From Psococerastis gibbosa (lineage: Eukaryota; Arthropoda; Insecta; Psocodea; Psocidae): a stretch of DNA of 64,000 bases. Below the pieces are notes generated by a model, which did no database searches, was not told the origin of the DNA, and saw only the letters and a program-made list of their open reading frames with translations. Made by a program: the position numbers and the translations under genes. Below, piece after piece: positions 942-61,268 of this stretch (its first letter is position 1; every line of letters begins with the position of its first letter). The DNA lies in the NCBI GenBank assembly GCA_963971405.1, contig OZ020491.1, positions 10,286,855 to 10,350,854 of the forward strand, in the 5' to 3' direction.

Positions 942-1086
942 AGGCGGCGTTTCCATTGACCTCGTTTTGCAGAATGCACATGACGTTGACGTGGTAGCAG
1001 ACATTAAAGACTTATTAATGATGTCTGTGACCACGTCAACGTCATGTGCATTCTGCAAAACGAGGTCAATGGAAACGTCACCTCAC
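942..1086. mobile_element. short palindromic MITE (simple hairpin form)
   Basis: A near-perfect inverted repeat of about 60-bp arms. The ends read AGGCGGCGTTTCCATTGACC and its complement, and the tip contains GTAGCAGACATTAAAGACTT. Both end and tip sequences recur in the larger nested MITEs at 11052, 30332, 47858 and 48713, so this looks like a solo form of that family. It has no coding capacity. Confidence 0.8.
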
Positions 1087-5156: not shown

Positions 5157-6353
5157 GGCTGGAATAAACAGAAACCAAGTTGAAACAATTAAGCTGAGGT
5201 TTAGAACTAATGAAACGCTAACAAAGTAAGGAACTCCCAATCTTCACGTTTTTGCGCTTCATACATACTATTTCCCATTAACCGTATGCTTCTGCATAAA
5301 ATTCTGCTGTTATTTAGTTTTTTTAGGTTATAAGGCGGGGTTTCCACATACGTCAATGGTCAATGAGAAATGTGAAATTGACGTTTTAGCAGACATTAAA
5401 GACATACTAAAAATTCTGCTACCACGTCAAAACCATATTTCTCATTGACGCATGTGGAAACCCCGCCTAATGATCTATTTCTAATTTCAGACGCAGTCTA
5501 TCCCACCTAGATAGATTGATTTGAAATAAAATTATTTTTATTAAAATCTTACTTTATAATTTTCCCGTAAATTTGATTGTCAGTGATTGTTATGCCCTTA
5601 CACCGTGGAAACGCTGGTTGACACTTAACAGTTATAATTTAATCCGTGAAAGAGGTCTATTTAAAGTGACAATTTCAGTTGCGATACGTGACTTCCTGAA
5701 GTAGCCCATATCAAATTTGATAAGATAAAATTACATTTCTGTGTCACTCTAGCCTATATCTCAGGGGTCACAAACGTATTGCGAGGATAGCGTAAATTTG
5801 ACAATTTATTCTAACTGTAGCACAAATTTCGCGGTCACGGTGGAGCTACGAGTACGGTATCTAACTTAACCATACGGCATACAACGTATCTATAAGCAAA
5901 TTAAACTTTTGTAGATAACCTAGACATAATATAATATATTATAGTTAGCGGTAAATGCTCAGGTAATGTTTCAAAACTGTAATAAAGTTCTTTGCATCCC
6001 AATTCTCAACCTGGCAATGTGGCAGATTGTCAGGTTTGTAGGTACTGTAGAGTACATACTAAGGTGATATATATTTCTAAAATGGAACGGCTTGGTTACC
6101 TCATCATATTAGGACCATATATGGTAATCCATTGGAAACTGATGAAGCGCTATTATTTGTTTTATTAACAAATAACTGTATAATAAATAAATAAATAATA
6201 TAAATCGTCCAATTTTCAGCGTTAGTAATTTCAATTTTGTTTGACAACAAATATATAGTTGGCACCTTGGCGACGATTCTGTTTGAAGAATTTTGTCGCC
6301 ATTTAAAATTAATTAAAATGCGTCAAATTTCCCTTTCCCAAAGATCCAAAACA
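5157..6353. promoter_or_regulatory. Divergent intergenic region, neuferricin / SMG6
   Basis: About 1.2 kb separates the neuferricin start codon (minus strand) from the proposed SMG6 start codon (plus strand), so both promoters must lie here. The region is AT-rich with no clear CpG cluster. It holds one 140-bp palindromic MITE (5331-5470). No TATA box or initiator can be assigned confidently. Confidence 0.5.
5331..5470. mobile_element. 140-bp palindromic MITE in the divergent promoter
   Basis: The ends are TAAGGCGGGGTTTCCACATA and the complement TATGTGGAAACCCCGCCTAA (written from the plus strand: ATGTGGAAACCCCGCCTAA). The tip contains TAGCAGACATTAAAGACATA and TCTGCTACCACGTC. It belongs to the same end-and-tip family as the elements at 942 and 30332. 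Confidence 0.8.
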
Positions 6354-6405: not shown

Positions 6406-9400
6406 GTAAATATAATTAGTTATCTAGTCTTTTTCAGAATCCCATAAAATAAATTCCAGTAGCTGTATTTACTTCCGGAGCTAAAATCCTAATTATATCT
6501 ACAGATTGTGCCTAATTCATGTCAATAATTTATTCGAGGATTGTGAACAACAATAGGAACTAGGAAGTGGAAATTCAAAACAAGAATAATGGAAGGTGTT
6601 TTAGGCTTCTTGCTTGCAATAAATATTAGTAATATTGTGAAGTTTCAGTGACATGCGTTGAATTGTTTTAAAGTAGATGTCCAGCATTAACAAAGCATTA
6701 GTTCATCTAGAATATGAGGATTGCGGCACATTGCAGTTGTTGACTAACGTATCCTATCTTGGCTCATGAATTGATTATTGCGCGCAATTGAGCATTACAT
6801 AAGTCGTTTATTTTTTTTCCTTTCCAATTTATACGTAGTATGAGGAAAGCTTTGAGATGGTCGAAATTTTCAATTTCGACATTTTAATGGATTTATACAA
6901 TTTAAGGTCCCTAGAACCCAAAAAAGGGGTTTCTACAAAATGTCTGTCTGTTCCTTGATTTATGGACAATCTACTTGATTGATTTGCCTGAAATTAGACA
7001 TTTAGGCTCACAAAAATCATGCCTCGGGAGTATTTTTTGTTATTTTGGGCTAACTCAATTTGGAGGTGTTTTATCGTCCAAGAACTCATAAAAATGGCTA
7101 AAAAAATTATTTGTCAAAAACAAACACGATTTCATTTACATTCACATATAGGCTATTTCAGTTTATAGTCTTTATTATTATTATATTAGTCTATAAACAA
7201 TTCCAATAGGGTGCTTGCCCAGTGATAGTTTGGTTCCAGAGCAAAAAAACGACTACATCTTCATGAAAAATGACTAAAAAATAATGTTTCTGGGGAACTT
7301 TTCTATCTACGCTTAGGTTATGTGACGCTTTTTAGCTTCATGTATGCTTTTGGTGTTAAATAGAGTAACAACAGGTTGCTTATCCGAGTAAAGTTTTGGT
7401 TTTTAATTAAAACAGTTGTTTTGAAGAAATTATGGATAATTCATTACCCATCGCATACCCTGCCACTATAGGCGTATTTTGTTACACGAATTCGAATTTG
7501 GATTACTGGATTTGGTGCATTTTGTTACCAAAGGGGGCGGAGCGTATTAAATGTTCGATTCTTAACCCGGATTAGAGAACAGGATTAGTATTATGTATTC
7601 AATAATATTTAATCTTGGTCGGGAGGTAGATCAGATATTCATTTTTTTTTTCTGATAAGTTTTTTTTAGCTTTGCCACGATTTTGGCTTACAAAAATTTG
7701 TTTACGCTAGGCTGACATCATGGATTTGCGATGACTATCGTGTTAATGGCTAATATTATGCTGTTGGTGTGACTTTTTATAGGGTTTATTTTTTAAAATG
7801 TAACTGCAAAGGCTTTCGCGGCCAGAGTCATATGAAGAATCAGTAGAAAATGGGCTGATGGTCCATAGTCGATATGAAAGTCAACTTCCATAATCAACTT
7901 TCAAATCAACCACGGCCCATCAGCCCAATTTCTACTGGTTCTTTATTTTTTTAGTTAGTTGTTTTAAGTAATTTTTTATAATGGGTGATGTTGATATCAT
8001 TTATTTTCTTCAAATTTTGGATTGGCGCCTTTAATTTGAATTCATGTCTACTGCTTAGAATATAATATTTGAATATCACAATTTTGTTGCATTTTTTTGC
8101 TTCTTTTCCTCCTGTTCCCTACTTCCCTGATTGGTCCAACTTCTAATACGGATTTGTGTTCAAATGTAAAATATTCGTGTAACAAAATACGCCTTATTTC
8201 TGTGGTGTATTATGTTCGTGTGCCCATTCTTGACTATGCAATCGTCAATTCAGTTTCAAATTTCAATTTCAATTTTCAAATTTACAATCGCTATTCAACA
8301 TTAGGAGTGTACCGCCCGTAGGAAATTGGCAACCCGAAATTTATTACTTTTCATTTTTTATTTAAATAACTAAGCATGTTATTAAAGATTTGGCTCATCA
8401 AAGTTGTAGAAGGCTACTTCATGGATCATATAATAAGGTATTTTTAGTTTTCGAAATTGTAGTTTTTTATAAAATTCCTTTTACGTGAAAATTTATTGTT
8501 TATAAAATATCTGCATGTTTATGAAAAAACTACAATTTCGAAAATTGAAAATATCTTATAATATGATGCATGAAGTAGTCTTCCACAACTTTGATGAGCC
8601 AAATCTTTAATAACATGCATAGTTAATTAAATAAAAAATAAAAAGGAATAAATTTCAGGTTGCCAATTTCCTACGGGCTGTACACTCTTAACAAGAAAAA
8701 AAAATATTCCGCTTTTCCAAGTTTGACCTTCGCCTTATTTGGGGTCTCAACGTTAACATTTCGAGTTAGCGTATTATTATTATAATTTTTAATTCAACAA
8801 CACTTATTTGTCCCATCTTCTATGTTACATTCAACAACATGGCTGTTTTTCTGCACTCCTAAAAGTAGTCAAGAGTGAAGATAGCTTACTCGCCTTTGCT
8901 AATTTGTTTTTCTTCCAGATAAATCAAGAAAAGAAGATTCGTCGCAGCGTCCAAGTACAATGAAGAAGAACGATCGTCAACTCTATCAACCACGTCAAGG
9001 AATGTCCATAAAACGAACGGACCAACCAGGAAGACAATGGAGGGCAGGTCCTGCGGAGAATCGACAGCAAAATCGACAAGTAGATGTAAATGTAGATATA
9101 AGTGACGAAATTACTAGTAAGCTTAAGGATGTAAGAATTGGTAATCGTTTTGACCAAAGGCATGACAATCGGCATCAGAAACAGGCTGTTTTCAAACCGG
9201 TGACTATTAAGACTGATGTCGATGAAGTTGTGGATTTAACAATCAGTCCATTGAGCGGAGATGAAAAGAAAAAACAAAAGAAGCCCGAGCAGCAGATCTA
9301 TGTACCTAAGGCTATGGCGGACCCGAAAGTTGAGAGAATTGACTGGGCTGAGGCTGCAGCCGCTGAATTAGAGATGGAGGAGCAACTGATAATTCCTAAG

Positions 9401-12400
9401 CAGTCAGAAAGAGAAGTGAAGCCGAAGAGTAAGAAAAGCAAGTCGAGAAAGGGAAGTCGTCCTTCGGATATGAATACCATGAATAATTCAAATCAAGTTG
9501 AAAATAGAGAAGTTCGCCAGGCTTCAGAACCACGTACTTTGGTGCCAAGCCGCCCCAACCACAGGGGTGCTAGGGACACCAGAAGTATGGAAAAGCCTCC
9601 CTATGGAAAGAAGTCTGGAGGTCATCAGCAGCCTCATTTTGAGTCAATAGCCCCGCGGTTCAGAAAGAAATTCATGGAGGATAGCGCAACGTCTGTGAAA
9701 GCTCCTGTTACACCTTCTGATGACGATTGGGACGGAGGCAGCGTTTCATTTTCCAGCCATGGACCACCACGGCCACAGTGGAACCAATCTGCGCCAGGCC
9801 CGTTGGGAAGAGGGAGAGGACGAAGACCTGGTCAGGTATGCATAACTTTTTATAGTATTCTAATGTTATTCCCAGTATGCCTACGTGGTAAGGAAAACCA
9901 GTTGGGATCGGTAGCCCATACTGCGAAAGCATGGTTGCAGTAATTTGTTTGGTGTCAAGGAAGAAAAGGTTTTTATTAGAAGCTCTTGTTTGAAAATTAT
10001 GGTAATCGGGAATGTTTGTAAACAAGAGGTTTGAACCTTATACCATATAATACTCTAGACGCGGGCCGCGGCATTCTAGATGCACTGCATGGAAAAGTTG
10101 GGGCACCAACATATGTTTATCTTTTGCTAACGGACGACGTCACAGCCTAGATTTATGCTGGCAAAAGATTTATTTGTTCACCAGTTACCTAGCCACAGGG
10201 ACTTTGTTGCTAGGTAAACTGGTAACCCGATTGCTTTTGCCAGTGTGTGACGTCATTTTATGCTGGTTCCTCGGAAATTTTAACATTGCGCGTCGAGAGT
10301 ATTACATGGTCGAGGGTTTGAAATGTTAGTCAACGTATTTTTAATTTCCAAAATAACTTCAAAATGGCATTAAGACCCGCTACATACGGTTGACTGGCGC
10401 GCAGGTGACTAGATGAGAAATTTCTCATTGTATCAAATGGGTAGTTGCAAAAACCATAGAGTCTGCTTCAGAAGATTTCTGAGACTGGCGTGAAGCCGAC
10501 AGCACGCAGGTGCACGATTACCCCTCGACACGCCCAGGGCACGCCAGCTTATAGAAATCTTCTGAAGTAGACTGTGGGTTTGCACAACTATTCACGTAGC
10601 CCATTCCCTGTAAGGGCAAATTTTTCACTGGCATGCGAATCGTCCGTGCCTATAAAACAACAATTTAATCGGGATTCATTGATTTAGAACCCTGCGGACA
10701 CTAACCGGCGGCGTGGCGATTCACGAGTCCAAGACAACCGCTACGACGACGCGAGCCATCGTTTTCACGACCCTGTAGACAGTCGGTACCATAACGACGA
10801 TGTGAAGCAGCGCCACGAGAATCCAGTGGAGCCTCGTTACCATAATGTCAATGTTAACGTTAACGGGGGCTCCAAATATGACTCTGACTTGTCTGCAAGA
10901 TCTGGAACCTACTCTGACAGTTTCAGCGATGACATTCGCTCATCTGTTGGTAGCAATCCGCTGAGTAGCCATAGGTGTGTATTTGAAGGGTTACCCTCCA
11001 AAATAAATTGCAAGGCACTATTCTTCCATCTTCTCCGTGAGGAGGTTCAGATTAGGTGCCCATTCCATCGACCTGCTAGGGCTGTTTCCAAAAACGGTGA
11101 CGTGTTAGCAGACATTCAAGACTTAGGTGGCGTTTCCACCGACCTCGCATTGCAGAATTGACGGAAATGTTTATTTTCCTCTATGCCATAGTTAAAATTG
11201 ATCAATGATCATACAGTAAAATCATAAACAAACAAACTAAAATTAAAAAATGGCGTAATGGGATATGTTAAGTACAAACATTTTAATAAATTTCTATAAA
11301 AAGATAAATTCTAATTTCCGTCAATGTCATTTGCATTCTGCAATGCGAGATCGGTGGAAGCGCAACCTAAGTCTTGAATGTCTGCTACCACGTCACTGTT
11401 TTTGGAAATAGCCCTAGCCGGTCAATGGAATGGGCGCCTAAGGGATTTTCACGTCTTCGCATCTTAGACCATAACGCATGAGTCAGAAGCTCAGCTACAT
11501 TGAAGACACCCGGGTATTACTTTTCAAGAGAGCTAGAAAACCGATTCTCTCTCAATTCCTTATCCCTCTTAACTCGCAATTAATATGTGAGAGCTATGTT
11601 ATTTATTGTTGGCACGTGATCACAATGGCGGACGCTGATTGGCGGATGTGGAGCTAGCACGTTTTAATCTAAGGAAAGGATGGAGATCTTAAGATTCTTA
11701 AAAATAAGTCTAACTTTAGAGGAGCATGGGAGAATTTTTTTGACGCCCAAGTGTTATGTCTATCGATAGACCGTCAAACAGGGAATCCAATCAATAACTG
11801 ATATTCGAAAAAATGGATATAGACCCATTGGAAAATAGGCAACTCAATTATTACAATACAATACAATATATATTTCCTTTAAATTATACAATACATGTAA
11901 AGTATAAAATGAAATCGTCAGAGTATCGTCAAAATCAGGTAGTTCTGTCATCGTCATTGTGCTAGTGCCTCAGTGACAGTGTGGAAAGCTTTCTCTAGGA
12001 GATGGTTTCTAAGCAATTTAGGGAAGTTAGAAGCATTTCTCGCCGCTCTCAGTTCAATCGGGAGTTTTCTAAGGTAGGCGAAACCTTGTAGTATAGGATC
12101 CAGTCGCTCACACGTGGCTGTGCGTGGCACTGGCTATGCAAGGTCTCCCCGTTTACTCGTGTTGAAGGTGTGAGTGTCCCCGTTTTGTTCCCCACATTAA
12201 ATTAAAAGAAAGCTAGGAAATTGTACTTATGTGCGTTATTTTATGCAGGAGTGGGCGAAGCTTTAGCCCTGAACCGAAGTCTGTCGCGTCTGCACCGATT
12301 GTGTTCACCAATACGTCCACCCCTGGCAAGAAAACAGATTGGACTGAGATGACTGATAAAGATGATATGTCCAGAAGTTCTTCTCAGAGCAGTCTGCACC

Positions 12401-15400: not shown

Positions 15401-18400
15401 CGATAACTCCAACACTGTGAAGACCCCTAGTATATAGTGTAATTAACTTAGTGTGGTTCCCGCCAAATAAGAGTAATCGTTTCAGCGATAGCGGAAAGCA
15501 GGAATTTCTGCTTCTGACGCTGGCTGTTATGCTTATTTCCTTTCCTGTTAATACGTTAGTATAATCCTTGTGAGAGTTTCCTTGGTGACTTCGTGGAACT
15601 TGGAGAACATCATGAGTAGAAGAAGAGCGCAATGATCCACTGTGAAATTCTTTAATAGTGACCTGATAAAATCCATCATCAGACTAACAACACATGAAAA
15701 AACGTTGTAATAAAAGTAGACTATTAGACAGGTTAGAAAGCTTGAGATTAGGAAGGCTCGAGGCACGAGGTTCTCACGAACGATATAATGTTTCAAACTG
15801 TATCCCCACTACTCCATTAATGTACTCAACCCCCGCCTCCACCTCCCACTCCCATCCCGTAGTATATAAGCTTGCGTTTTTTCAGTGTTGTTAGTCTGAT
15901 GATGGATTTTATCCGAAACCGGTCACTATTAAAGAATTTCACTGTGGATCATTGCGTTCTTCTTCTACTCATGACGTTAGTATAAGGAAGGTTTTGTAAT
16001 GGTCTTCGAGATTTCAACGGATTTGTAAGTTTTGAGGTCCAAGGACCTAAAAGAGTGTTCCGTCAGACGATTCATCGATTTGTGGACAAACTACTCGATA
16101 GATTTCGAGGAAATTCGGTATGTATAAAAATCATGTCTCGGGAACAATTTTCCTATTTTAGGCTAACTCAATTTTGGGGGCTTCTACCCACAAATAATGG
16201 GTGGTTCTCGTCATATGCCAAGTACAGTCAAGGTTGTAAGACTAAGGATATCAATAATTCTCGTAGTTGTGACCCCAGATTTAAGTGGGCAGAACTTCTG
16301 CGCATCATTTCAGCTGTCATTTTTACATGAGCAGAACATTCCAATCCTGGTCACATATTCCTTCCACGACGATTTACCAACGTTTTTCCCGCTATCGACC
16401 ATTATTAGCTAAGGCGCTTATTCCACCTACCTCTAAGTGCAAAATACACATACGGTGACGTAGTAGCAGATATCATTAATAAAGGCGGGGTTTCCACCGA
16501 CCGACCGACCTCTCATTGCAGAATGCAAATGACATTGAAATTTTTGTTTCACTCTATGCCATAGTTAAAATTGATCAATGATCATAGAGTAAAATCACAA
16601 ACAAACAAACTAAAATTAAAAAATGGCTTTATGGGATATGTTAAGTACAAACATTTTAATAGATTGTGTGATCTATTTCAGCATGCCAAGCAAAGTATCA
16701 AGATCTGCGCCAGCAATGCAACACCAACCTGCTGGGCATCCACTGCAGTCTTCAGCGGTCATGGCTCCACACAATATGCCGCAGGTGTCAATGAGCGAGC
16801 CTACAATGCATGCACATGCGCAGAAGCACCCCATATATTTTGCCATTGCTGAAAGGTAAATTTTTTATTTAACTATATATTATTGGCAGTATTACTCGCA
16901 TGAATCTACGTCCTATAGAAGCATATTACTTACCTACGACACGTTGCTATAAAATGTTGCGGTACTATAGATATATGCAAATACCCGGGTATTGTCATCC
17001 GCCATTTTGTATCATATAATTCCTATATGGTAAGAATTGTAAGAAAGTAAAAGATTGAAAAGAACTAAAACACGGATACAAAATGGCGGATGACAGTACC
17101 TGTCTAGAAAACAGTGATCAGAGGTGACGAGTGTAACAATACTAACTAATATCGAGGTTCTATTTCTATTTTGTTGGCAGCTTCATACTGTCAATTTTTG
17201 TGTTACAGATGCGCGCGCATCTTCAAAATTCACTCTCGTCATTTTTTCATAACGTGGCTAAAGAAGTATAACTTCAAAAACGTTTCTAACGTCATAATAA
17301 TCAGTTGCAGTGTTGACCTCTTCAACCCTACAACTACCACGTTGTGAAGACATTTGTTAAGGCTTATTACATTCCTATTTAATGCGTTAGTCTAAGGAAA
17401 GCTTTGTGATGGTCGAAATTGCCGATTTTGAGATTTCAACGGAGCAGGTTGCTTTCATAAAGAAAGCCCTGGTTCGGCGTTTATTCCGTCATTAGTGCAT
17501 CAATAATTGATGAGATTTTTGTTTTAAGGAGACTATTATGTAGATACTTAACTTATCTATTATAAATTAAGTAATAATATGGTTGAGACTAATTATTGAT
17601 TCATAAATGACGGAATATTGACAAGTGGAATAGCCGTCTTTGGAAGAATTTTTTTAGAAGAGATCATGGGTAGTCGGCGCCCCAATGCATTGTATACCAT
17701 GACATTATTATATGCGTAGTATTAGTCTGCCCATTGCAATTGTCCCATCATCAAACCAGTACTTTTAGGGAAAATAGTTAACTTTAACGTTATAGGATGC
17801 AAAGTAGAATCCGCCCTTAAGAGATATCGGAGGTGGAAAAGCCATATAAGTGTAAAAATCAAATATCTCTTGAAATATCAATCGTCCACACAGGTTGGAT
17901 TAAAAAACTAGTCTCATTATATTTACAAAAATATGGGTAGACGCCCCAATTACAATACTGTGAGCCGATTGGTCCCCCACTCCAGTGCAACCCCAGAGTT
18001 TCAAAAATATCGGGAGAAAAAGGAGAATTTGTTTTTCAACCGTTCAACTTTTATTGATTGGAAAAAATAATTTTCCCGCTTCTAAAAAAATTAAAGGGTT
18101 AAAATAAATTTACTAATGCATTAAAATAGGTTAAAAAATGGTCAAGTAGCCTATTGGCTAATAGTTACTTTTACTTTTACCGCGCCTAATCCTCATGGAG
18201 GGTCGGCGGCACGACAGCAGCGTTTCCACACAGTCCTGTTGTGTGCGTCCTCGGTGGAGAGCCCCAAACTTCTCATATCTCAGGCGATCTTTCTTCCCAG
18301 TGTAACTCTCGGCCTCCCTGGTGGTCTTCTTCCTTGTATCTCCCGGTTCATTACTCTTTTGACTAGGTGGTTTTCGTCTCTACGTAGTACGTTTCCCCAC

Positions 18401-27400: not shown

Positions 27401-30400
27401 GGGGATACCATATTCGGAAAACTCATAATTTCTATGGCCTCTCTGTGTAGCCGAGGAAAGTACGGAGCACTTGTCGATAGTACTGTAGCTTGCTCAAAAC
27501 GTACTGTATGGCCTGTTTGCGTTAACTGACAGTACTTCCTCTTAGAATCCCTAATTTTCCATGTATATAATGATGATGACTTGCCTTGTCCAGTCCCGAA
27601 AAAAAATGATTTCCTGTGCTGCAAAATGGCGCGGGACGTGCATCATTGCATGTTATTGCACTCTATTGTCATTTTCTCATCTACTGACGCAAAAACAAGT
27701 TCGCCAATAACGCCCCCTGGGTGTTTATGTATTGCCGGTGGTCATAAATCTAAAGGCTAGTTCTTGAGTTAGCCATACCGTTTTTTTTCCTATTTCTATC
27801 GCTCTGGCGCCTCTGGCACAGCGTGGTGTCGCCTAAGAAGCACTTACGGTACCTATTTTCTATACATCACTGTCGGTAAATGCCGTTTGGTCTGGTCTGG
27901 TGTAGTATCAAGTGGGCCTAAGTACTTAGTGTACATTGTATATGACAGTACCGCAAAGGCTGGGTACGAATTGCAGACGTTTAAACAAAGTAACTGCAGC
28001 TCTATATTAAGCCTATGGACAGACGAATACTGTGCATCTCCTGGTGAGATCGTGTCCATATTGCTGAGGTCCGGAGGCCAATGTATACAGAAGCCGAGTT
28101 GCTGCTGACAGTTAAGAAATGGAAACTAACATACTTTGGCCTTGCCTTTCGAAGAATGGCCAGAAAGAAAGTGTGGAACTTGAACCAACAACCTTTCGGG
28201 TGGAAGTCGGAGTCTGTACCACTACCCTACATGTTATGACTCATAATTGTGTTCCATCCCCGTAGGTGCAGATAAGCCGTGGGATGAGATTCTGGGGGGG
28301 GGGGGGGGTTACCCTGGGGCAACTTTTTTTTAGATAACATGTGACCCTATCGGTACATTCACGTTTTTTTTTTGCCTGGAAGGATCCGCTACTGAAGAAG
28401 TCGTGGTTTGATGACATTTGAAAAGTCAAGTTTTTGCATTACAAGCAGTGATAATAATATTGTAGCATGCATTAGGCCCGACTTGGTGAGCTGGCTAAAA
28501 AAATTCCTTTCTACTGAGGTCGAACTCATGATCTTCCTGTTCATAACCTACTTCTGGTACAAGCTTGTATCATATCGGCCTACTAAATTTTAAACAAAGA
28601 GGTGGCCCAGTTTTTTCGTTTCATTAGTCTCAAAACTCATTGCAATTGAATGACGCTACCTTGGCCTTCTAATACGAATTTAATTGCACTTAGAGATAAT
28701 AAAGGAAAGATCCGTTAGTAGTGTGGTCCAAAAACTTGTTTACATTTGCAGATCTCGAATCGAGTCGAGATTCTCGAGCCTAAGCATCATTCCTTTGGCC
28801 CCATTCCTGTTTTTTTTTTTTCCATTTTGTTGATGGAAATTGTTGTATTTCACCTTTGTCTTAATTAATTGCATATGGGTTTATTTCCCATCGCGCCTGC
28901 TGGCTTGGATCGGTCAATTAGGCGAAGTAGGACAGGTTTTTGGCTAAAACTTACTCGGCACCTGTTATGTTATCCAAGTTTATTGTCTGTCGATTTTTTC
29001 CTTCATTTTATATGTCCCGTTAAACTAACCGTTCTTGTGCATTTGTTTTCATCAATTCACTCTTAATGTTTATACCCTTACATTTATTGTTTTGGTTGTA
29101 TTAGATGCAATTTTCCGGTTCGATTACCCCCCTGGCCACCCCCGGATTACCCCAAATAATGTAATGTGTAAATTTAAAAAAAGGTTTGGAGCCGTTTATG
29201 AGAAAATATGTTATAGCATTTTGGAGTTTTTGGGTGGTAGAACCTACCAAAATTGAGTGGTAATTGTAATGTTTTTTGAAAAGCTTTTCATGGCCTACTT
29301 ATGGTCCCATGGGTCCCTTGTCCAATGCCAATGACCCAATAGATTTCGGTTGTTATTGTTGCCGTATGAACTTTTGGCCATTGGCAAACTGGTATACGTT
29401 CTCGTTGTCAACCTACGCCGGCTACAAGCGATAATGGACAAGCTGGGACAAGCTTACCATTGACGCAATCAAACAGGTGAAAGCAGGACTTAACCAAGTA
29501 CAGATACGAGTCAAAAAATTGAGTTAGCCCAACTTGAAAAAAAAATTATCTTATACGATATAATATGAATTTCATCAATCAAATTTCATCCAATCGTTGC
29601 TTGCTCTTATTCGAGGGCATGGCAGGAGGCGCCATATTAAAAACATCCTTGGCTGGAGTGAATATCTTATCTCTCCTATATAGAACTCTGCCTTTAAGCA
29701 TATTAGTAAATAATAAATAAATATTGACTTTTTGTTCTATTACTAAGCCTACCTAGCGGATTTAGTGCTATAAAGCCCTCTCTTACACACAACTAGGAAA
29801 GCCTGCTTTACATGCCCTCCGGAGCATGGCCAGAAAATGTAGCAAGTGTGGGACTCGAACCAACATCCTTTCGGGTGAAAGTCGGAGTCTGTACCACTAC
29901 TCTAAATGTCCAGTCCATGCAGGTATGGGAGCAGCTGTCACATTGTGGCTCTCACAGCCATCCTCGGAAATCTGTGAACCTTGACTTTGATACATAAACC
30001 CATAAATAATATTAACCATTATGAATGCGTGCATTATTGCATGCACGTCCGAGTGCAGTTGCAGTGCTTTCCCAGGCCGGCCCGGCCCTTGTGTCAATCT
30101 GTACCTGGATGCCTTGCATTTTGCATCTTACTCACACCACGCCCCTCTCCGGACAAATGCTACAGTTATATCAACTTAATATTAAAAGTTATGGGTGGCG
30201 CTTACCCGCTCTCTGATGCTCTGGTATGTGGGAATTGTCAGGTAACCATGACCTATCTGGCTATCTGCAGCCCTATTATGGCGATTTGGGATTATTGTAA
30301 CACCGGGGCTTATTTTTTAATATTAAATTAGTAAGGCGCCCATTCCACCGACCGGCTAGGGCTATTTACAAAAACAGTGACGTGGTAGCAGACATTCAAG

Positions 30401-31226
30401 ACTTAGGCGGGGTTTCCACCGACCTCGCATTGCAGAATTGACGGAAATGTTTATTTTCCTCTATGCCATAGTTAAAATTGATCAATGATCTTACGGTAAA
30501 ATCTCAAACAAACAAACTAAAATTAAAAAATGGCGTCATGGGATATGTTAAGTACAAACATTTTAATAGATTTCTATAAAAAGAAAAATTCAAATTTCCG
30601 TCAATGTCATTTTCATTCTGCAATGCGAGGTCGATGGAAACGCCACCTAAGTCTTGAATGTCTGCTACCACGTCACCGTTTTTGTAAATAGCCCTAGCCG
30701 GTCGGTGGAATGGGCGCCTTAGGTATCACGTGACGGTGTTAAAATATGCGGGGGAAATTCAAATTAATTAAATTATTGGAATACAAGAGAATGGTTGCAT
30801 TGTTTTATAATTGAAGGAAATACTAATAAACATTAAAATGTACAGGTAGAATTTTGAAATAATAAAGTATTTTAATTAATGTGTCTACGTCTAAGGGAGA
30901 AAAAAAAATTTAGCGGAGGATTAATTTATCAATTTTGCATTTTGCACTCATTTGTTTAAAACAATTGAATAAACCCCGGTATTATGTTAATCCCAAATCG
31001 CCATAATAGGGCTACAGTACTTTTTCTGACCATCCCAAACTACCAAAGTTATAGTTATACAGATTGTTGTATTGTTACAGTATGGAAACGTTTCAAACCG
31101 CTGGTGTTCAAATGCTCAAGGAGTTTAGGGCCCTACTTTCACAACGGCCCATCCCTGTCACGTGGATGAGAATGCTTCAACTAGCAGCGCTTAATATTTT
31201 CGCAATAGAACATACCAAGCTTAAGG
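6354..31226 (+). CDS. SMG6: SMG6 / EST1A, NMD endonuclease (exons 1-13, C-terminus missing)
   Basis: Thirteen exons join in phase to about 1118 residues. SMG6 cuts mRNAs near premature stop codons in nonsense-mediated decay and binds the exon junction complex and UPF1. Visible parts: an EJC-binding-motif-like segment NDRQLYQPRQG (residues 36-46); a disordered, charged, Arg/Ser/Asn/Gly-rich region (about 50-740) with SRQLYDPSNPARP resembling the vertebrate RRLWDPNNPDQ; then the 14-3-3-like/TPR helical domain from about 741, with SLGDLARYREQ, GRPYYQLGV, KFDAVYYYMRSL, REIWIHP, and METFQ...LKEFRALL...RMLQLAALNIF. Each has a close counterpart in vertebrate SMG6. The last exon seen ends with one base of the next codon, where the family continues Asp-Cys. 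The rest of the helical domain and the PIN nuclease domain (three catalytic Asp) are not found up to 64000. Introns are GT-AG, with one weaker donor (GTTAGA, exon 11). Confidence 0.93.
6818..7475 (+). mobile_element. R1 repeat copy in SMG6 intron 1
   Basis: Starts with the family hairpin CCAATTTATACGTAGTATGA, then GGAAAGCTTTGAGATGGTCG, and keeps the order of the 34305-35133 copy to the block CCCTGCCA. It has no open frame and its right end is lost. Confidence 0.6.
7808..7943. mobile_element. foldback element
   Basis: Inverted arms AAGAATCAGTAGAAAATGGG / CCCAATTTCTACTGGTTCTT enclose a loop with GTCAACTTCCATAATC. The left margin (GGCTTTCGCGGCCAGAGTC) is shared with repeats at 63270, suggesting a larger dispersed family. 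Confidence 0.6.
8301..8690. mobile_element. 390-bp palindromic MITE, family 2
   Basis: Arms start AGGAGTGTACCGCCCGTAGG and close CCTACGGGCTGTACACTCTT. Pairing runs nearly the whole length, with a centre at about 8490-8510. A second copy is at 60875-61268. It sits in SMG6 intron 1, 229 bp before exon 2. Non-coding. Confidence 0.8.
8919..9835 (+). CDS. SMG6: SMG6 exon 2 (EJC-binding motif, disordered region)
   Basis: Acceptor TTCTTCCAG at 8918, donor CAG/GTATGC at 9836. Residues 18-323. NDRQLYQPRQG resembles the repeated vertebrate PDLxIYxPG EJC-binding motifs; only one copy is obvious. It is followed by acidic and Lys-rich low-complexity sequence (DWAEAAAAELEMEEQLI) and a Gly/Arg end (GRGRGRRPGQ). 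It ends in phase 0. Confidence 0.9.
10125..10260. repeat. foldback element in SMG6 intron 2
   Basis: Inverted arms pair GACGTCACAG...ATGCTGGCAAAAG...ACCAGTTACCTAGC with GCTAGGTAAACTGGT...CTTTTGCCAG...GACGTC, with an 18-bp loop near 10195-10210. No copy with the same arms was seen elsewhere in the window. Confidence 0.6.
10425..10610. repeat. foldback element in SMG6 intron 2
   Basis: Inverted arms include GAGTCTGCTTCAGAAGATTT / AAATCTTCTGAAGTAGACT and ATGGGTAGTTGCAAA / TTTGCACAACTATTCACG. The sequence ACTTCAGAAGATTTCTG and CACGCCAGCTT recur in the foldback at 52180-52400, so the two belong to one family. Confidence 0.6.
10688..10974 (+). CDS. SMG6: SMG6 exon 3 (disordered region)
   Basis: Acceptor GATTTAG at 10687, donor AG/GTGTGT. 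Starts in phase 0 with NPADTNRRRGDSR, rich in Arg, Asp, Tyr, His and Asn (YHNVNVNVNGGSKYDSD), and ends ...LSSHR with AG of a split codon. The open frame runs on to 11161 only because it enters the MITE at 11052; that extension is not coding. Confidence 0.8.
11052..11441. mobile_element. nested double-palindrome MITE, family 1
   Basis: The outer palindrome starts TTAGGTGCCCATTCCATCGA and ends in TGGGCGCCTAA. A second palindrome (11123-11370; start TTAGGTGGCGTTTCCACCGA, end CAACCTAA) sits exactly between GACATTCAAGAC and GTCTTGAATGTC of the outer arms, that is, at the outer hairpin tip. Total 390 bp, the same as the copy at 30332. It lies 77 bp after the exon 3 donor. Confidence 0.85.
11852..12195 (-). 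pseudogene. 5'-truncated LINE, ORF2 C-terminal end with (ATTGT)n tail
   Basis: On the minus strand a frame reads QGFAYLRKLPIELRAARNAS, then NFPKLLRNHLLEKAFHTVTE and a stop at 11954. This is like the N-x-L-P-x-E-L-R end of LINE ORF2 proteins. A short 3' UTR and (ATTGT)n at about 11854-11876 follow, the mark of target-primed insertion. It lies antisense in SMG6 intron 3. Confidence 0.65.
12249..12437 (+). CDS. SMG6: SMG6 exon 4 (symmetric phase-2 exon)
   Basis: Acceptor TTATGCAG, donor CCCAG/GTATGC. The first base completes AG/G (Arg): SGRSFSPEPKSVASAP..., ending PSLMPPR. Length 189, a multiple of three, with the same phase on both sides. Ser/Pro-rich and likely disordered. Confidence 0.8.
12862..13337. 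mobile_element. foldback element in SMG6 intron 4
   Basis: Arms of about 90 bp: GTATTCACAGCATTTCGAT...CCCTAAGGGAAAGTA...TTTTTCTACGGTAGAAAAA on the left and the complement on the right (13240-13335). The 290-bp centre shows no coding sequence. Confidence 0.65.
13528..13755 (+). CDS. SMG6: SMG6 exon 5 (Arg/Ser-rich, symmetric phase-2 exon)
   Basis: Acceptor TGTCCATCAG, donor GAGAG/GTAAAT. Codes for SRERRGTYRRHERSQSRDSG, then a GVGGGNGSGGG linker and repeats of SRENSRDRKEW / SRENSRER. Length 228. RS-like composition suggests a phosphorylated, RNA- or protein-binding disordered segment. Confidence 0.85.
13851..14048 (+). repeat. tandem duplication of 99 bp
   Basis: Two adjacent, almost identical units (GTTGCTGCAAACAAACCTCT ... 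CACGTTGGCTACCTTTCT) at 13851-13949 and 13950-14048. The first begins about 95 bp after the exon 5 donor. Open frames across it are only by-products of the duplication. Confidence 0.85.
14510..14884 (+). CDS. SMG6: SMG6 exon 6 (Asn/Ser/Pro-rich, symmetric phase-2 exon)
   Basis: Acceptor GGATTTTCTCAG, donor ACGAG/GTATGG. Starts DWRRSNSRETSHEATDWRKG; the end has SRQLYDPSNPARPIVV, which resembles the short motif before the ordered domain in vertebrate SMG6. Length 375. A 499-bp MITE begins 46 bp after the exon. Confidence 0.88.
14930..15428. mobile_element. 499-bp MITE, family 3
   Basis: Terminal inverted repeats AGGGGTCTTCACAGTGTT... / AACACTGTGAAGACCCCT, with subterminal GTTATCGAGTTA repeated inverted. 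It is flanked by AGT on both sides, a likely 3-bp target duplication. A second copy is at 32631-33138. Non-coding; 46 bp after SMG6 exon 6. Confidence 0.8.
15975..16196 (+). mobile_element. R1 fragment in SMG6 intron 6
   Basis: GTTAGTATAAGGAAGGTTTT, then GATTTCAACGGATTTGTAAG and CTACTCGATAGATTTCGAGG follow the R1 order, truncated on the right. Confidence 0.6.
16410..16665 (+). mobile_element. half copy of nested MITE family 1, abutting SMG6 exon 7
   Basis: Left outer arm (TAAGGCGCTTATTCCACC...GTAGTAGCAGATATC) followed at its tip by the left half of the inner element (AAGGCGGGGTTTCCACCGAC...). The inner half matches the 30403 copy to AACATTTTAATAGATT, then stops 17 bp before the exon 7 boundary. 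Both right halves are gone. Confidence 0.75.
16682..16855 (+). CDS. SMG6: SMG6 exon 7 (Met/His/Gln-rich, symmetric phase-2 exon)
   Basis: Acceptor GATCTATTTCAG, donor GAAAG/GTAAAT. The first base completes AG/C (Ser): MPSKVSRSAPAMQHQPAGH..., ending HPIYFAIAER. Length 174. The acceptor is preceded, 17 bp away, by half a palindromic MITE (16410-16665), so the end of the intron is largely transposon-derived. Confidence 0.8.
16995..17100. repeat. short foldback element
   Basis: TGTCATCCGCCATTTTGTAT at 16996 pairs with ATACAAAATGGCGGATGACA near 17074. The 60-bp loop has no special features. It is in SMG6 intron 7. Confidence 0.6.
17388..17470 (+). mobile_element. R1 fragment with internal deletion
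   Basis: TAAGGAAAGCTTTGTGATGG TCGAAATT joins directly to GCAGGTTGCTTTCATAAAG, a part found about 500 bp further on in the full copy. Confidence 0.5.
17490..17632. repeat. foldback with shared central module
   Basis: The ends CCGTCATTAGTGCATCAATA / AATTATTGATTCATAAATGAC(GG) pair. The centre (TTTAAGGAGACTATTATGTA GATACTTAACTTATC...) is nearly the same as the centre of the different foldback at 43675-43933, so two unlike palindromes share one core. Confidence 0.55.
18165..18610 (-). pseudogene. 5'-truncated LINE ORF2 C-terminus with (AAAAGT)n tail
   Basis: Minus-strand frame of 107 codons with MRMLRRSCGLTLRDQRANQD, then EKRLNWWGNVLRRDENHLVK and GRRPPGRPRVTLG. This is the classic LINE ORF2 C-terminal layout (M-L-R...G-x-x-x-R-D...R-L-x-W-x-G...G-R-P-R). 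A frameshift near 18280 leads to TVWKRCCRAADPP-like sequence and a TAAAAGTAAAAGTAAC tail. The plus-strand open frame here is a shadow. It lies in SMG6 intron 7. Confidence 0.75.
18751..19069 (+). CDS. SMG6: SMG6 exon 8 (start of helical domain)
   Basis: Acceptor GTTTTTTTAG, donor GAAGAG/GTAAGT. RHPQLHETMRQIE..., then LRDLLWLELKVCNNENLEPIFWKIAYHNLIEALKG opens the 14-3-3-like helical array, matching the vertebrate helix pair around the DQILWKNAFYQVIE segment. It ends in phase 0 (NILEE). Confidence 0.93.
19918..20262 (+). repeat. dispersed repeat R4
   Basis: Starts CCTTACCAAGTTGAATCCA, includes GTCCTGGTCACCTCCGAA and GTGTGACTT, and ends ...AAGCAGAAATGCTGAAAG. Other copies: 45648-45935 (minus) and 49853-50070 (plus). 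Copies share order but differ by indels. It has no open frame and the class is not recognised. It is in SMG6 intron 8, ending about 75 bp before exon 9. Confidence 0.6.
20336..20547 (+). CDS. SMG6: SMG6 exon 9 (14-3-3-like domain)
   Basis: Acceptor CATTTTAAG, donor AAAT/GTAAGT. GFRYYEDLIEGLETNYNFKL, then ILSAQKLLLSLGDLARYREQ; the last motif is a signature of the EST1/SMG5-7 family (vertebrate ...GDIARYREQ). It ends in phase 2. Confidence 0.95.
21300..21378 (+). CDS. SMG6: SMG6 exon 10 (TPR-like helix)
   Basis: Acceptor TTATTGCAG, donor TTTCT/GTAAGT. YYTRALSLNPKSGRPYYQLG plus VISFIS matches the vertebrate AxxIAPKNGRPYNQLALLA segment. At 79 nt it is too short to find by open-frame length alone; phase and homology give it. 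Confidence 0.95.
21424..21652 (+). mobile_element. tRNA-derived SINE, full-length copy
   Basis: The head is tRNA-like, with GTAGAGTGGTGGAACAG and a B-box GGTTCGAGTCC at 21474-21484. The body is CATGCTTCGGAGTGCATGTA. The 3' tail AGTTGAGTGTAAGAGAGGG ...AGCCCTAACTCCGCTAGGTTGG ends in AT-rich repeats. The tail matches the LINE end at 22852-22935. Other copies are at 25648, 29704, 35961, 42735, 55000 and 60480. It lies in SMG6 intron 10. Confidence 0.85.
21762..21872 (+). CDS. SMG6: SMG6 exon 11 (YYYMRSL helix)
   Basis: Acceptor CTTTTTCAG, donor AAGAAG/GTTAGA. KRKFDAVYYYMRSLMVAHPQ then RSARESLLTLFEEFRKK, the best conserved block of EST1-type proteins. The donor GTTAGA is weak, but it joins in phase to the next exon. 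Reading through gives only VRKKDNYENY... and a stop at 21945. Confidence 0.9.
22010..22935 (+). pseudogene. 5'-truncated LINE (CR1/L2/jockey-like), ORF2 C-terminus and 3' end
   Basis: Open frame to the stop at 22730 gives about 240 residues of the thumb and C-terminal part of a LINE ORF2: NLGVMLDSTLSWHEQVS, FPHFDYCDSLL, RLQRAQNCCIRF, YKILNGFAPSYF and LLWNSLPTHIKESPSLPIFK, in the order seen in CR1/L2/jockey-type proteins. The 3' UTR of about 200 bp ends with GTTGAGTGTAAGAAAGGGCC ...GGCCCTAACTCCGCTAGG... and (ATT)n. The reverse transcriptase core is lost. The long intact frame suggests a recent insertion. It lies in SMG6 intron 11, sense orientation. Confidence 0.85.
22930..23115 (-). pseudogene. 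LINE reverse transcriptase core remnant
   Basis: On the minus strand GVPQGSILGPTLF is read at about 23060-23022, the conserved palm motif of LINE reverse transcriptases. It is followed, after a gap, by LLADDGNN, a degenerate F/Y-A-D-D box. The frame is interrupted by stops. It directly abuts the (ATT)n tail of the opposite-strand LINE. Confidence 0.7.
23179..23444 (+). CDS. SMG6: SMG6 exon 12
   Basis: Acceptor TTCCTTATAG, donor GTTGG/GTGAGT. YESVNRTKVAEEKNVIEKER is a charged coiled segment; LRREIWIHPC is the conserved IWIHP motif; then LSAMSPADINKQLTTSYLYV with HGKIFSKVG matches the vertebrate SPSDLNKRFILSFLHAHGKL. It ends in phase 2. Confidence 0.94.
24000..24245 (+). pseudogene. LINE 3'-end fragment with (GAA)n tail
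   Basis: AMMIANIR and a stop (24187-24213), followed by GAAGAAGAAGAAGAAA. The same end is read in the antisense copy at 46400-46785. Only the last few dozen codons at most are left. Confidence 0.4.
24470..24560. repeat. GC-rich hairpin
   Basis: AGGGGGTGCCGCCTTACT pairs with AGTATGGCGGCACCCCTA around a 35-bp loop. Outer pairing (ATGCATTGAAAC / ATCCAATGCAT) extends the stem. Isolated in this window; it may be a MITE core. Confidence 0.5.
24846..24919 (-). tRNA. tRNA-Ile(AAU)
   Basis: 74-nt cloverleaf on the minus strand. Acceptor GGCCCAT/ATGGGCC with discriminator A; D-arm GCTCAGTTGGTTAGAGC; anticodon stem TCGTG/CGCGA with loop CTAATAA, anticodon AAT (Ile); T-loop TTCGATC. A-box and B-box (GGTTCGATCCC) are intact. 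A run of seven T follows the 3' end (24844-24838), a Pol III terminator. One T-stem pair (GTGGG/CCCCC) is mismatched. It differs from the common animal Ile gene by a compensated acceptor pair. It is antisense in SMG6 intron 12. Confidence 0.93.
25060..25560 (-). pseudogene. 5'-truncated LINE ORF2 C-terminus with C-x-C zinc-knuckle-like end
   Basis: Minus-strand frame of at least 127 codons: NLDWRTWATLNQIRSGAART, then CACGQRQDLEHLFLCSLC. The W-x-x-L-N-x-x-R-S-G and C-x-C-G...H...C spacing is typical of the C-terminal end of jockey/R1-type LINEs. The open frame continues back to about 25540. After the stop the sequence is AAAGTA-rich. Another clade than the 22010 LINE. Confidence 0.75.
25648..25840 (+). 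mobile_element. tRNA-derived SINE copy
   Basis: B-box GGTTCGAGTCCC, body ATGCTTCAGTGGGCATGTAA with a small deletion, tail GAGTGTAAGAAAGGGCTTTG ...ACTCCGCTAAG, then (ATTT)n. It is in SMG6 intron 12. Confidence 0.8.
26985..27080 (+). repeat. dispersed repeat fragment (CAACGTTTCGTCAACATCTG)
   Basis: GGGCTGATGGGCCGTGGTC followed by CAACGTTTCGTCAAC ATCTGCTGCAGACATCTTC. Related pieces occur at 7808-7943 and 63240-63375, always with the cggctttc.cggc...agtc margin. Class not assigned. Confidence 0.45.
28136..28245 (-). mobile_element. SINE head fragment
   Basis: Complement of the SINE head: the B-box appears as GAACTTGAACC and is degenerate; ACCTTTCGGGTGGAAGTCGG matches other copies. The tail is missing. 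Confidence 0.65.
29285..29512 (-). repeat. dispersed ~220-bp repeat, copy 1
   Basis: Collinear, inverted match to 50905-51110: TGGCCATTGGCAAACTGGTA and CTCGTTGTCAACCTACGCCGG correspond to TACCAGTTTGCCAATGGCCA and CCGGTGTAGGTTGACATCGAG. No recognisable promoter or frame. Confidence 0.6.
29704..29912 (-). mobile_element. tRNA-derived SINE, near full-length
   Basis: All parts in complement: (AAAT)n, CTATTACTAAGCCTACCTAG, AGTGCTATAAAGCCCTCTCT, CATGCCCTCCGGAGCATG, GGACTCGAACC (B-box) and TACCACTACTCTA. It is in SMG6 intron 12. Confidence 0.85.
30332..30721. mobile_element. nested double-palindrome MITE, family 1, best copy
   Basis: Outer ends TAAGGCGCCCATTCCACCGA / TCGGTGGAATGGGCGCCTTA; the TA at both ends may be the target site. 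The inner palindrome at 30403-30650 starts TTAGGCGGGGTTTCCACCGA and ends CGCCACCTAA, placed between GACATTCAAGAC and GTCTTGAATGTC. Total 390 bp and inner 248 bp, identical to the 11052 copy. It lies 360 bp before SMG6 exon 13. Confidence 0.88.
31081..31226 (+). CDS. SMG6: SMG6 exon 13 (last exon recognised)
   Basis: Acceptor ATTGTTACAG, donor AAGG/GTAAGT. The GG left over from exon 12 plus T makes Gly, then METFQTAGVQMLKEFRALLS and WMRMLQLAALNIFAIEHTKL plus K. It matches the vertebrate METFPAV...LKEF...RMLQLMTINMFAV. Intron 12 before it is 7.6 kb. One base of the next codon is left; no continuation exon was recognised downstream. Confidence 0.93.
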
Positions 31227-40908: not shown

Positions 40909-41997
40909 TGTATTGTATGAGGCGACAAGCGGGAATGTTTAACATGAAAGCACGTTGCCTAAGAAGGTTTTAAATTCTGAACTACGATTCGAATCCATCC
41001 CTGTCCAGCCTATAGTCTGCTCCTCTGTCTACTGCGGACTGCGTTACCCCAGCTGTCCAGCTATTGACAGACAGTGCTTCCAGAGTGACGCGAGGATCGG
41101 TTTCTTTGCCTAATTGGAAAGTATTGTGTGAGGAGACCGGGAATAGCTAACAAGAAAGCATATGGCTTGAGAAGGTGGTAGATTCTGAGCTTTGCTTCGA
41201 TTCCATAACTCTCAAGCCTGCAGTCTGCTCCTCTGTCTATTGAGTTACCCCAGTTGTCCATAACCTTACCCCTTTTATCGACATACCGTCAGATCACATC
41301 AGCTTCCAGAGTGACGCGAGGATCGGTTTCTTTGCCTAACTGCAAAGTACTGTATGAGGAGATAATCAGGAATGGTTAAAATGAAAGCGTATTGTCTAAG
41401 AAAGTGGTAAATTCTGTTTTTGCTTCGATTCCATAACTCCAAGCCTGTAGTCTGCTCCTCTGTCTATTGAGTTACCCCAGTTGTCCATAACCTTATCCCT
41501 TTTATCGACATACCGTCAGATCACATCAGCTTCCAGAGTGACGCGAGGATCGGTTTCTTTGCCTAACTGCAAAGTACTGTATGAGGAGAAAAGCAGGAAT
41601 GGTTAAAATGAAAGCGTATTGTCTAACAAGGTGGTAAATTCTGTTTTTGCTTCGATTCCATAACTCCAAGCCTGTAGTCTGCTCCTCTGTCTATTGAGTT
41701 ACCCCAGTTGTCCATAACCTTATCCCTTTTATCGACATACCGTCAGATCACATCAGCTTCCAGAGTGACGCGAGGATCGGTTTCTTTGCCTAATTGCAAA
41801 GTACTGTATGAGGAGAAAAGCAGGAATGGTTAACATGAAAGCGTATTGTCTAAGAAAGTGGTAAATTCTGATTTTGCTTCGATTCCATAACTCTCAAGCC
41901 TGTAGTCTGCTCCTCTGTCTATTGAGTTACCCCATCAGTTGTCCATAACCTTACCCCTTTTATCGACATGCCGTCAGATCACATCAGCTTCCAGATT
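40909..41997 (+). repeat. ~227-bp satellite-like array, about 4.5 units
   Basis: CTTCCAGAGTGACGCGAGGA recurs at 41077, 41303, 41530 and 41757 (spacing 226-227 bp); a partial unit follows at about 41987. Units 3-5 are nearly identical; the first is diverged. Each holds GTAGTCTGCTCCTCTGTCTA and TGCTTCGATTCCATAACTC. No coding frame. Confidence 0.88.
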
Positions 41998-42920: not shown

Positions 42921-43674
42921 GCAACTTACCCCACAATAAAAGCGATTGGGGAACCTGGCTTCAGATCTAAAGCTAAGTTATGAAACGGTTTTAGAAATGC
43001 CCGTAGCATTCTATAAGTAATCCAGAATATACAATGACATGAGCTGTATGCCTATTATAAGAGACTAAACAGCATATTAGATATGAAAAGGCCAAAGTGC
43101 CAAAAGAGTTTATAAAGTAGCCCCCCAAACGTAATAACAAACGTAGACGACAATAAAAAAACCTGTTCATTGAGTAATGACTCGATACCAACCCTGTGTT
43201 TACATCGTAAAACGGTCCAAAAATAAACTATCACAGCAAATATAAATTAAAATTCAATAACCGGGTCTGAAAACGCTTGGTTAAATAAAGATTTGACCGA
43301 TGATTTGAAGGTGCAGATATGCAACAAGTGTAATGAGGATTGATAGGTTGGAGCCTGTGGCTCGAAAAATACCAGTAATTATGGCTGTGAGTAAAAATAC
43401 AATCATTCAAATGGACTGATGCAGTTTTTCGCCGGAGCTGCGTGGACCCCATATTTGGCTTAGAGTGGCCCCTGGCCAGTTTAAAAAAAATAGTTGGGGA
43501 CACGCCTACTAGAGTGGCATTTACTAATAATAAAGATGCGTGTACTCTGGTATGATTGTTGAATGACCATATTTCCGCACCTACAGTTTGTACTTTTTTT
43601 CTTATATTTTGGCTTTTGGGGTACCTTTTTGTTAACAACATTAATGGCCAGATTTGTCTTTTTCACTTTTTGGA

Positions 43675-43933
43675 AAGGCGGCTATTCCACGGGCCGATTT
43701 GCTTCACTAATTTGCTTCACTAATTCACTTGTGTTTTGAGATTTTTTGTTTGTTTTGCTTTAAGGAGACTAATATGTAGATACTTAACTTATCTATTATA
43801 AATTAAGTTTTAATATGGTAGCAGACATCATTAATAAGTATCTACGTTATAGTCTCCTTAAAACAAAACAAACAAAAAATCTCAAAACACAAGTGAATTA
43901 GTGAAGCAAATTAGCCGGTGGAATTGGCACCAA
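43675..43933. mobile_element. palindromic MITE related to family 1
   Basis: Ends AAAGGCGGCTATTCCACGGG / CCGGTGGAATTGGCACC resemble family 1 ends. The arms (TGTTTTGAGATTTTTTGTTTG and complement) are different. The tip holds ATGGTAGCAGACATCATTAA, as in family 1, and a module shared with 17490-17632. Confidence 0.7.
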
Positions 43934-47857: not shown

Positions 47858-48215
47858 TTAGGCGCCCATTCCATTGACCGGCTAGGGCTATTTCCAAAAA
47901 CAGTGACGTGGTAGCAGACATTCAAGACTTAGGTTGCGTTTCCACCGCTCTCGCATTGCAGAATGCAAATGACATTGACGGAAATTAGAATTTTTCTTTT
48001 TATTAAATCTATTAAAATGTTTGTACTTAACATATCCCATGACGCCATTTTTTAATTTTAGATTGTTTGTTTGTGATTTTACTGTATGATCATTGATCAA
48101 TTTTAACTATGGCATAGAGGAAAATAAACATTTCCGTCAATTCTGCAATGCGAGGTCGGTGGAAACGCCACCTAAGTCTTGAATGTCTGCTACCACGTCA
48201 CCGTTTTGCACCTTA
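47858..48215. mobile_element. nested double-palindrome MITE, family 1, right arm shortened
   Basis: Outer start TTAGGCGCCCATTCCATTGA; inner 47929-48175. After GTCTTGAATGTCTGCTACCA CGTCACCGTTTT the outer right arm jumps to GCACCTTA, a deletion of about 30 bp. Nested order as at 30332. Confidence 0.8.
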
Positions 48216-48712: not shown

Positions 48713-49087
48713 TTAGGCGCCCATTCCATTGACCGGCTAGGGCTATTTCCAAAAACGGTGACGTGGTAGCAGATGGCGTTTCCATCGATCTCGCATTGCA
48801 GAATGCAAATGACATTGATGGAAATTAGAATTTTTCTTTTTATAGAAATCTATTAAAATGTTTGTACTTAACATATCCCATGACGCCATTTTTTAATTTT
48901 AGTTTGTTTGTTTGTGATTTTACTGTATGATCATTGATCAATTTTAACTATGGCATAGAGGAAAATAAACATTGCCGTCAATTCTGCAATGCGAGGTCGG
49001 TGGAAACGCCACCTAAGTCTTGAATGTCTGCTACCACGTCACCGTTTTTGGAAATAGCCCTAGCCGGTCAATGGAATGAGCACCTAA
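48713..49087. mobile_element. nested double-palindrome MITE, family 1, tip deletion
   Basis: Outer ends TTAGGCGCCCATTCCATTGA / TCAATGGAATGAGCACCTAA. The left junction lacks about 17 bp (GTAGCAGA joins TGGCGTTTCC), while the right junction keeps CCACCTAAGTCTTGAATGTC. Only about 500 bp from the copy above. Confidence 0.82.
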
Positions 49088-60874: not shown

Positions 60875-61268
60875 CATTAGAATGTCAATTGTAGGAAATT
60901 GGCAGCCCAAAATACAATATTTTTTATTTTTTATTTAATTAACTAAGCAAGTTAGTAAAGATTTGGCTCATTTAAGTTGTAGAAGACTACTTCATGCATT
61001 ATATAATAAGGTATTTTTAGTTTTCGAAATTGTAGTTTTTTTTATAAAATCGATTATACGTGAAAAGTTATTGATTATAAAATATTTGCATGTTTCTGAA
61101 AAAACTACAATTTCGAAAATTAAAAATATCTTATAATATGATGCATGAAGAAGTTCTTCTACAACTTTAATGAGCCAAATCTTTAATGACTTGTTTAGTT
61201 AATTAAATGAAAAATAAGAAGTGTTAAATTTCGTGCAGTCAATTTCCTGCGGGATGTACACTCTTAAA
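60875..61268. mobile_element. MITE family 2, second copy
   Basis: Collinear with 8301-8690: GTAGGAAATTGGCAGCCC...ATTTTTAGTTTTCGAAATTG TAG...GTCAATTTCCTGCGGGATGT ACACTCTT. Confidence 0.8.

Follow-up and report, generated by a model that had tools for sequence, protein, structure and literature searches.

The nested MITEs of rice and maize treated by Jiang and Wessler in 2001 are reportedly named Tourist and Stowaway. Later work describes nested MITEs and co-moving MITEs from rice (PMC5907723, PMC10664404, citing Jiang and Wessler 2001), and the elements studied here resemble the rice and maize cases in the presence of a MITE within a MITE, of the same or another family, and in apparent joint movement, but differ in that one very abundant nested unit is involved, which lies at the exact centre of a palindrome and whose tip halves appear to have turned symmetric. 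PIF/Harbinger MITEs such as mPing share with the present elements a 3-bp TTA/TAA duplication (PMC2836001), whereas here the genome is animal-like, the ends have two boxes with GGCG...TTCCAC and no transposase is linked. The MITE-like palindromes M1 and M2 of pithoviruses, of about 140 nucleotides, are likewise often found together and may move together, but they lie next to each other, have a putative TA duplication, and show no central nesting (PMC10664404). Finally, bacterial insertion sequences target REP palindromes, which is comparable in that a mobile element occurs repeatedly in a palindrome; that case consists of repeated specific insertions, whereas the evidence below argues for one event and subsequent spread (PMC1525189). 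No title or abstract opening on nested or palindrome-centred MITEs matched the present case among the matches listed from the open-licence literature, which does not imply absence from print.

The stretch of DNA analysed (64,000 nucleotides; the window) is located on contig C19 of the 409-Mb home genome, and a sample of 200 kb of the same genome (twenty 10-kb stretches on C1, C12, and C13) was also used. The window has a eukaryotic look: it has frames with a cytochrome b5 domain, RNase H, and MADF; apparent introns were noted by eye, and no long bacterial-style gene array was seen in it. The composite at 30332-30721 (Table 1) has outer arms that match in 67 of 68 positions, and its inner element is bounded by GACATTCAAGAC-TTA on the left and TAA-GTCTTGAATGTC on the right. 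Its alignment to the 11052 composite spans 386 positions at 93%. In the genome as a whole (1013 first-look candidates), matches of 97-100% were obtained at 40 scored places, including those in the window. Thus, the nested arrangement is not a matter of chance. The original prediction had placed an inner palindrome at the centre of an outer one at 11052, 30332, 47858, and 48713; the central position was found in all four copies, with an inner element of about 242 bp, but this element is palindromic only in part, consisting of inverted ends of about 50 bp and a non-palindromic interior of about 140 bp. The diverged outer arm predicted to carry the inner element at its tip at 16410 was also found to do so, with a Q tip half and half of the element lost (the inner element is cut at about 16665 and the right arm is gone), and the elements at 942 and 5331 are un-nested, as had been proposed, their tip core being additionally found in the 43674-43933 element. 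In all four B-type copies in the window the inner element lacks 7 or 11 bp (depending on the alignment) at its 5' end, a loss that is absent from the 16410 copy.

Table 1. Positions of the composites, their parts and their relatives (window coordinates unless a locus is named).
Feature	Position	Strand	Remarks
Left outer flank trinucleotide	30332..30334		TAA, candidate duplication; right counterpart TTA, i.e. inverted
Left outer arm, B type	30335..30402	+	Terminal box GGCGCCCATTCCACCGACC, spacer, second box GACGTGGTAGCAGACATT, tip half P CAAGAC
TTA at inner/outer junction	30403..30405		
Inner element, 242 bp	30406..30647	+	A-type ends GGCGGGGTTTCCACCGACC / GGTGGCGTTTCCATCGACC
TAA at other inner/outer junction	30648..30650		
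Right outer arm, B type	30651..30718	-	
Right outer flank trinucleotide	30719..30721		TTA
Second composite, P/P tip	11055..11438	+	Inner 11126-11367; 11052-11441 with flanks; layout as 30332
Third composite	47858..48207	-	Inner 47932-48172 reversed; far outer arm mostly lost after ~48207
Fourth composite	48716..49084 (with flanks 48713-49087)	-	Inner reversed; ~15 bp lost at one junction (GTAGCAGATGGCG)
Fifth copy, half lost	16410..16665	+	Left outer arm diverged (C-like), Q tip half GATATCATTAATAAA, inner 5' part only
Un-nested A-type palindrome	943..1082		Empty tip, Q joined to P; flanks TCA/TCA
Un-nested palindrome	5334..5467		Tip ATTAAAGACATACTAAAAATT; flanks TAA/TAA
Relative with other arms	43674..43933		Same terminal box, tip core GTAGCAGACATCATTAATAA
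Copies of ~430-bp relative	L027:6377-6801; L031:317-751; L037 from about 9660		
Asymmetric Q-inner-P composites	L047, L049, L050, L053, L055, L058		
Nine P/P composites with TTA/TAA flanks	30332-30721, 11052-11441, 48713-49087; L018, L019, L024, L028, L039, L044		
Outer arms, A type	L032, L050, L055		
Outer arms, C type	L047, L048, L053, L058		
Outer arms, B type	Window composites		L046 is between C and B

The palindromes of the window and the sample have two boxes in common, a terminal one (GGCGnnnnTTCCAC) and a second one (GACGTGGTAGCAGACAT). The distance between them was 44-46 bp in 48 of 54 matches to the second box, a number in which many copies of one composite family are included and whose independence is therefore overstated; of the other six, two had no end box found and four lay at 39, 43, 47, and 67 bp. 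The spacer between the boxes varies by family, and the un-nested elements of about 140 bp are scarcely more than two terminal repeats joined at the tip. The inner arm matched the A-type arm at 942 in 39-42 of 50-52 positions, with a local score of 50 against a maximum of 24 in 2000 shuffles. The proposed likeness of inner and outer ends was retained in the short end box but not in the rest of the 30332 B-type outer arm, for which the score was 17 and the shuffle maximum 22, and the reading of inner and outer elements as siblings therefore rests on the A-type copies. In a relative of about 430 bp with 5331-like ends, the interior is related to the inner-element interior (78-81% over 159-167 bp); the arms of this relative also occur at L035:2180-2322, closed there by the tip core. 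The inner interior did not match the 43674 element, despite the tip core of the latter (score 24, shuffle maximum 47), or the 17470-17645 element (score 29, shuffle maximum 36). In the collections searched, the tip pattern gave no match in viral_contigs and one in genome_contigs, judged to be chance; 15 stretches of viral_contigs matched the end pattern, which was put down to chance from an estimate of pattern degeneracy alone; and the inner interior pattern gave 0 matches. Other repeats were observed in the window, namely, a tandem array at 41076-41995 (a 227-bp unit in four copies, 94% matches) and a further long palindrome family at 8301-8691 and 60893-61248 with a common interior and different ends. 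By eye, the broken 16410 element ends, within 16640-16860, just upstream of sequence that resembles a coding exon and its 3' splice site (gtgatctatttcag).

The tip consists of two unlike halves, P (GACATTMAAGACTTA) and Q (GAYATCATTAATAA), which meet around a single TAA in the un-nested elements at 942 and L043. Because the window composites have P on both sides, the insertion is hidden in them, and relatives in which the two halves are still unlike are more informative. A pattern of Q followed by the inner end was found at 596 exact places genome-wide (300 and 296 by strand), whereas the reversed-pattern control gave 0. Reading of 12 such loci gave six asymmetric Q-inner-P composites, three Q/Q composites, one locus with partial copies, and two repeats of others. 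P-inner-Q was not seen among these loci, the search pattern favouring one inner end; for that reason, the constant orientation with Q on the 5' side (6/6) is ascertained and is a weak test. When the inner element, with an extra A included, and 3 bp were removed, L050 and L055 were identical to the un-nested L043:8150-8288 at 123 of 138 positions, and the other four asymmetric composites at 109-112 of 131-138. For four of the six, the tip left by this removal agreed with the empty tip at 28 of 30 positions. The duplication was exactly TAA/TAA in L049, L053, L055, and L058, the trinucleotide on the P side being TTA in L047 and TAG in L050. One extra A stands beside the Q-side TAA in all of them except L050 (5/6). 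Judged by sequence, L043 represents a related empty site, the nested site has a duplication of 3 bp, and the symmetric junction of the window is secondary.

Furthermore, two bases of the tip separate filled from empty halves. When the halves that otherwise matched the motif exactly were counted, of which one composite can give two, the diagnostic base of the P half was C in 54/54 filled and A in 20/20 empty halves (eight of the 20 belonging to one host repeat), and that of the Q half was T in 14/14 filled and C in 6/6 empty halves; the exact parental empty tip would read ATATCATTAATAAGTCTTGAATGTCTG. So perfect a split indicates that independent insertions into ordinary empty tips are an unlikely source of the composites. 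This bears directly on the original prediction, which had left two explanations side by side, that is, one nested unit that spread as a composite and repeated self-targeting of extruded hairpin tips. Under the latter, the transposase would recognise extruded tips or their TTA/TAA, giving many independent inner insertions, and the presence of the inner element at the same tip in at least three outer arm types (A, C, and B), together with the target trinucleotide at the tip, is what such targeting could produce. The diagnostic Q base was also C, the empty type, at one of the 100 Q junctions listed of the 596 and T at the other 99. Nevertheless, every exactly matching filled half had the two filled-type bases and no empty half did, the junction site is constant, and L046 and L049 connect the outer types, so that self-targeting appears very improbable. 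Single insertion with composite spread is much better supported than repeated self-targeting, and the first of the two predicted explanations was thus sustained by the single junction site, the TAA duplication and the two tip bases.

The likeness of the inner and outer end boxes could also arise if there had never been an insertion, namely, if the whole were a single IR/DR-like element of about 390 bp with a long terminal repeat holding two direct copies of the end motif, so that the inner part would never occur separately. In accordance with this, all 17 inner copies in the window and the sample are composite or broken composite. For such an element no empty site would be expected, whereas a related one exists; the likeness between the inner and 942 arms spans about 50 bp, well beyond the end motif; and a pattern made up of the inner 3' end, TWA, and six non-P bases was found at 73 exact places genome-wide (control 0), where the bases that follow are unlike the tip. 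Among the matches listed of the 73, about 24 of 29 ends had the inner-type spacer, the rest belonging to related families or being doubtful, and the 73 ends are probable candidates for solo inner elements. We therefore give the single-element explanation, which had been named beforehand as an outcome that would overturn the prediction, little credence. All 17 inner copies (12 in the 200-kb sample and five in the window) contact a tip half at one end at least. It is similarly hard to credit that there were two nested founders, P/P and Q/Q, in separate outer families. The outer arms do differ, those of the P/P window copies being B type and those of the Q/Q loci C type, and the inner 5' loss of the four B-type window copies is absent from the 16410 copy, but Q-inner-P composites of both A and C type bridge the two series and have the same two diagnostic tip bases.

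Taken together, it is very probable that one inner element inserted once at the tip of a sibling palindrome and that the product then spread as a composite. The elements are non-autonomous DNA transposons (MITEs) whose terminal repeat has two boxes and whose target duplications are 3 bp long and mostly TWA. An inner-type MITE would have inserted once into a palindromic sibling, at its central TAA, giving the order Q half-TAA-inner-TAA-P half, and the outer ends presumably stayed functional, which would allow the nested element to move and spread as one unit. Later, conversion between the arms of the palindrome probably made the tip halves alike in some lineages (P/P in the window, Q/Q in other copies), and the outer ends would have diversified into the A, C, and B types. 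The tip could have served as the insertion site because most TTA/TAA targets lie there and because it is the only part outside the terminal repeat; insertions into the repeat would probably abolish mobility. TTA/TAA occurs within the 942 element at the tip only, and, when the outer parts are joined at one TA, at two places outside the tip in the 30332 composite and one in the 11052 composite. Target sequence and survival thus suffice for insertion at the tip, and hairpin extrusion, although possible, is not needed.

The outer arms were compared with respect to the proposed equalisation. Among P/P composites, arm identity was 0.942 within and 0.922 between elements (2 of 5000 permutations, n=25), and it was 0.945 and 0.917, respectively, when the window and the sample alone were used (27 of 5000 permutations, n=13). 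This small difference agrees with arm-to-arm conversion as the origin of P/P and Q/Q. The outer arms of L049, at about 1440-1870, were observed to be of two types, C on the left and A on the right, which suggests exchange between elements. Extrapolation from the 12 inner copies in the 200-kb sample gives about 24,500 copies genome-wide (12,700-42,900 by Poisson), and the composites would make up about 2% of the genome if the three sampled contigs are typical.

One finding does not follow from a single founder. Each new insertion is expected to give identical flanks, and this was so in 12 of 25 P/P composites, whereas nine paired a TTA flank with a TAA flank, and four were otherwise; nine of the loci behind these counts (L018-L026) were best hits and not random picks. 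In the non-composite rows, by a hand tally that includes two 430-bp elements as well as elements with arms of other types and a small number of uncertain pairings, the flanks were identical in 12/17 (mostly TTA or TAA), TTA against TAA in 0/17, and otherwise in 5/17. The difference in inverted flanks, 12 direct and nine inverted against 12 and 0, gave a Fisher p of 0.012. By a further hand tally, TTA/TAA flanks were present in L047 and L048, two of the nine other composites (L047-L051, L053, L055, L056, and L058). Rows for L017, which is the window itself, and for L052 and L057, the same elements as L051 and L056, were left out, and two rows of L054 scored as 'other' are possibly mis-paired, with an arm identity of 0.60 in one. 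The inverted flanks in nine of 25 P/P composites, a small sample, are thus an unexplained anomaly for the one-founder reading. If the composite folded at each move, the two TWA copies would pair except at the middle base, and mismatch correction would yield TTA/TAA flanks; arm pairing with such correction could account both for the self-complementary tip halves and for the TWA middle base. We regard this as unlikely; short palindromes, which are expected to fold at least as well, do not have inverted flanks.

With respect to classification, the elements have the features of MITEs, being about 390 bp long, bounded by inverted ends and target duplications, high in copy number, and of a length that leaves no room for a transposase. 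The commonest direct flanks were TTA or TAA, and TAT/TAT, AAA/AAA, and TCA/TCA also occurred; the last three, being identical but not TWA, show a duplication of 3 bp instead of TA. The window by itself was initially read as having the 2-bp TA duplication of Tc1/mariner, which was ruled out by the 3-bp direct repeats in the sample copies. The prevalence of TWA flanks and the exact TAA in four of six nested sites suggest PIF/Harbinger, and, as no transposase was linked among the loci read, the duplication is the basis of this assignment. DDE_Tnp_4 transposases are present in the genome (150 scored PF13359 matches of 220 candidates), and the eight loci of the top group (L059-L066) all carry a 5331-type palindromic MITE, at about 2570-2740 or, on the other strand, 766-934. 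This group was rejected as the partner, its GGCG boxes belonging to the MITE inserted in it. A nearby frame in L061 looks YqaJ-like, as in ISL2EU elements.

This analysis indicates that two explanations that look alike from one window can be separated by using asymmetric relatives and diagnostic bases. The composites represent a case of a nested MITE at very high copy number, in which the halves of the palindrome would have become symmetric afterwards, and their inverted TTA/TAA flanks make an odd repair step testable.
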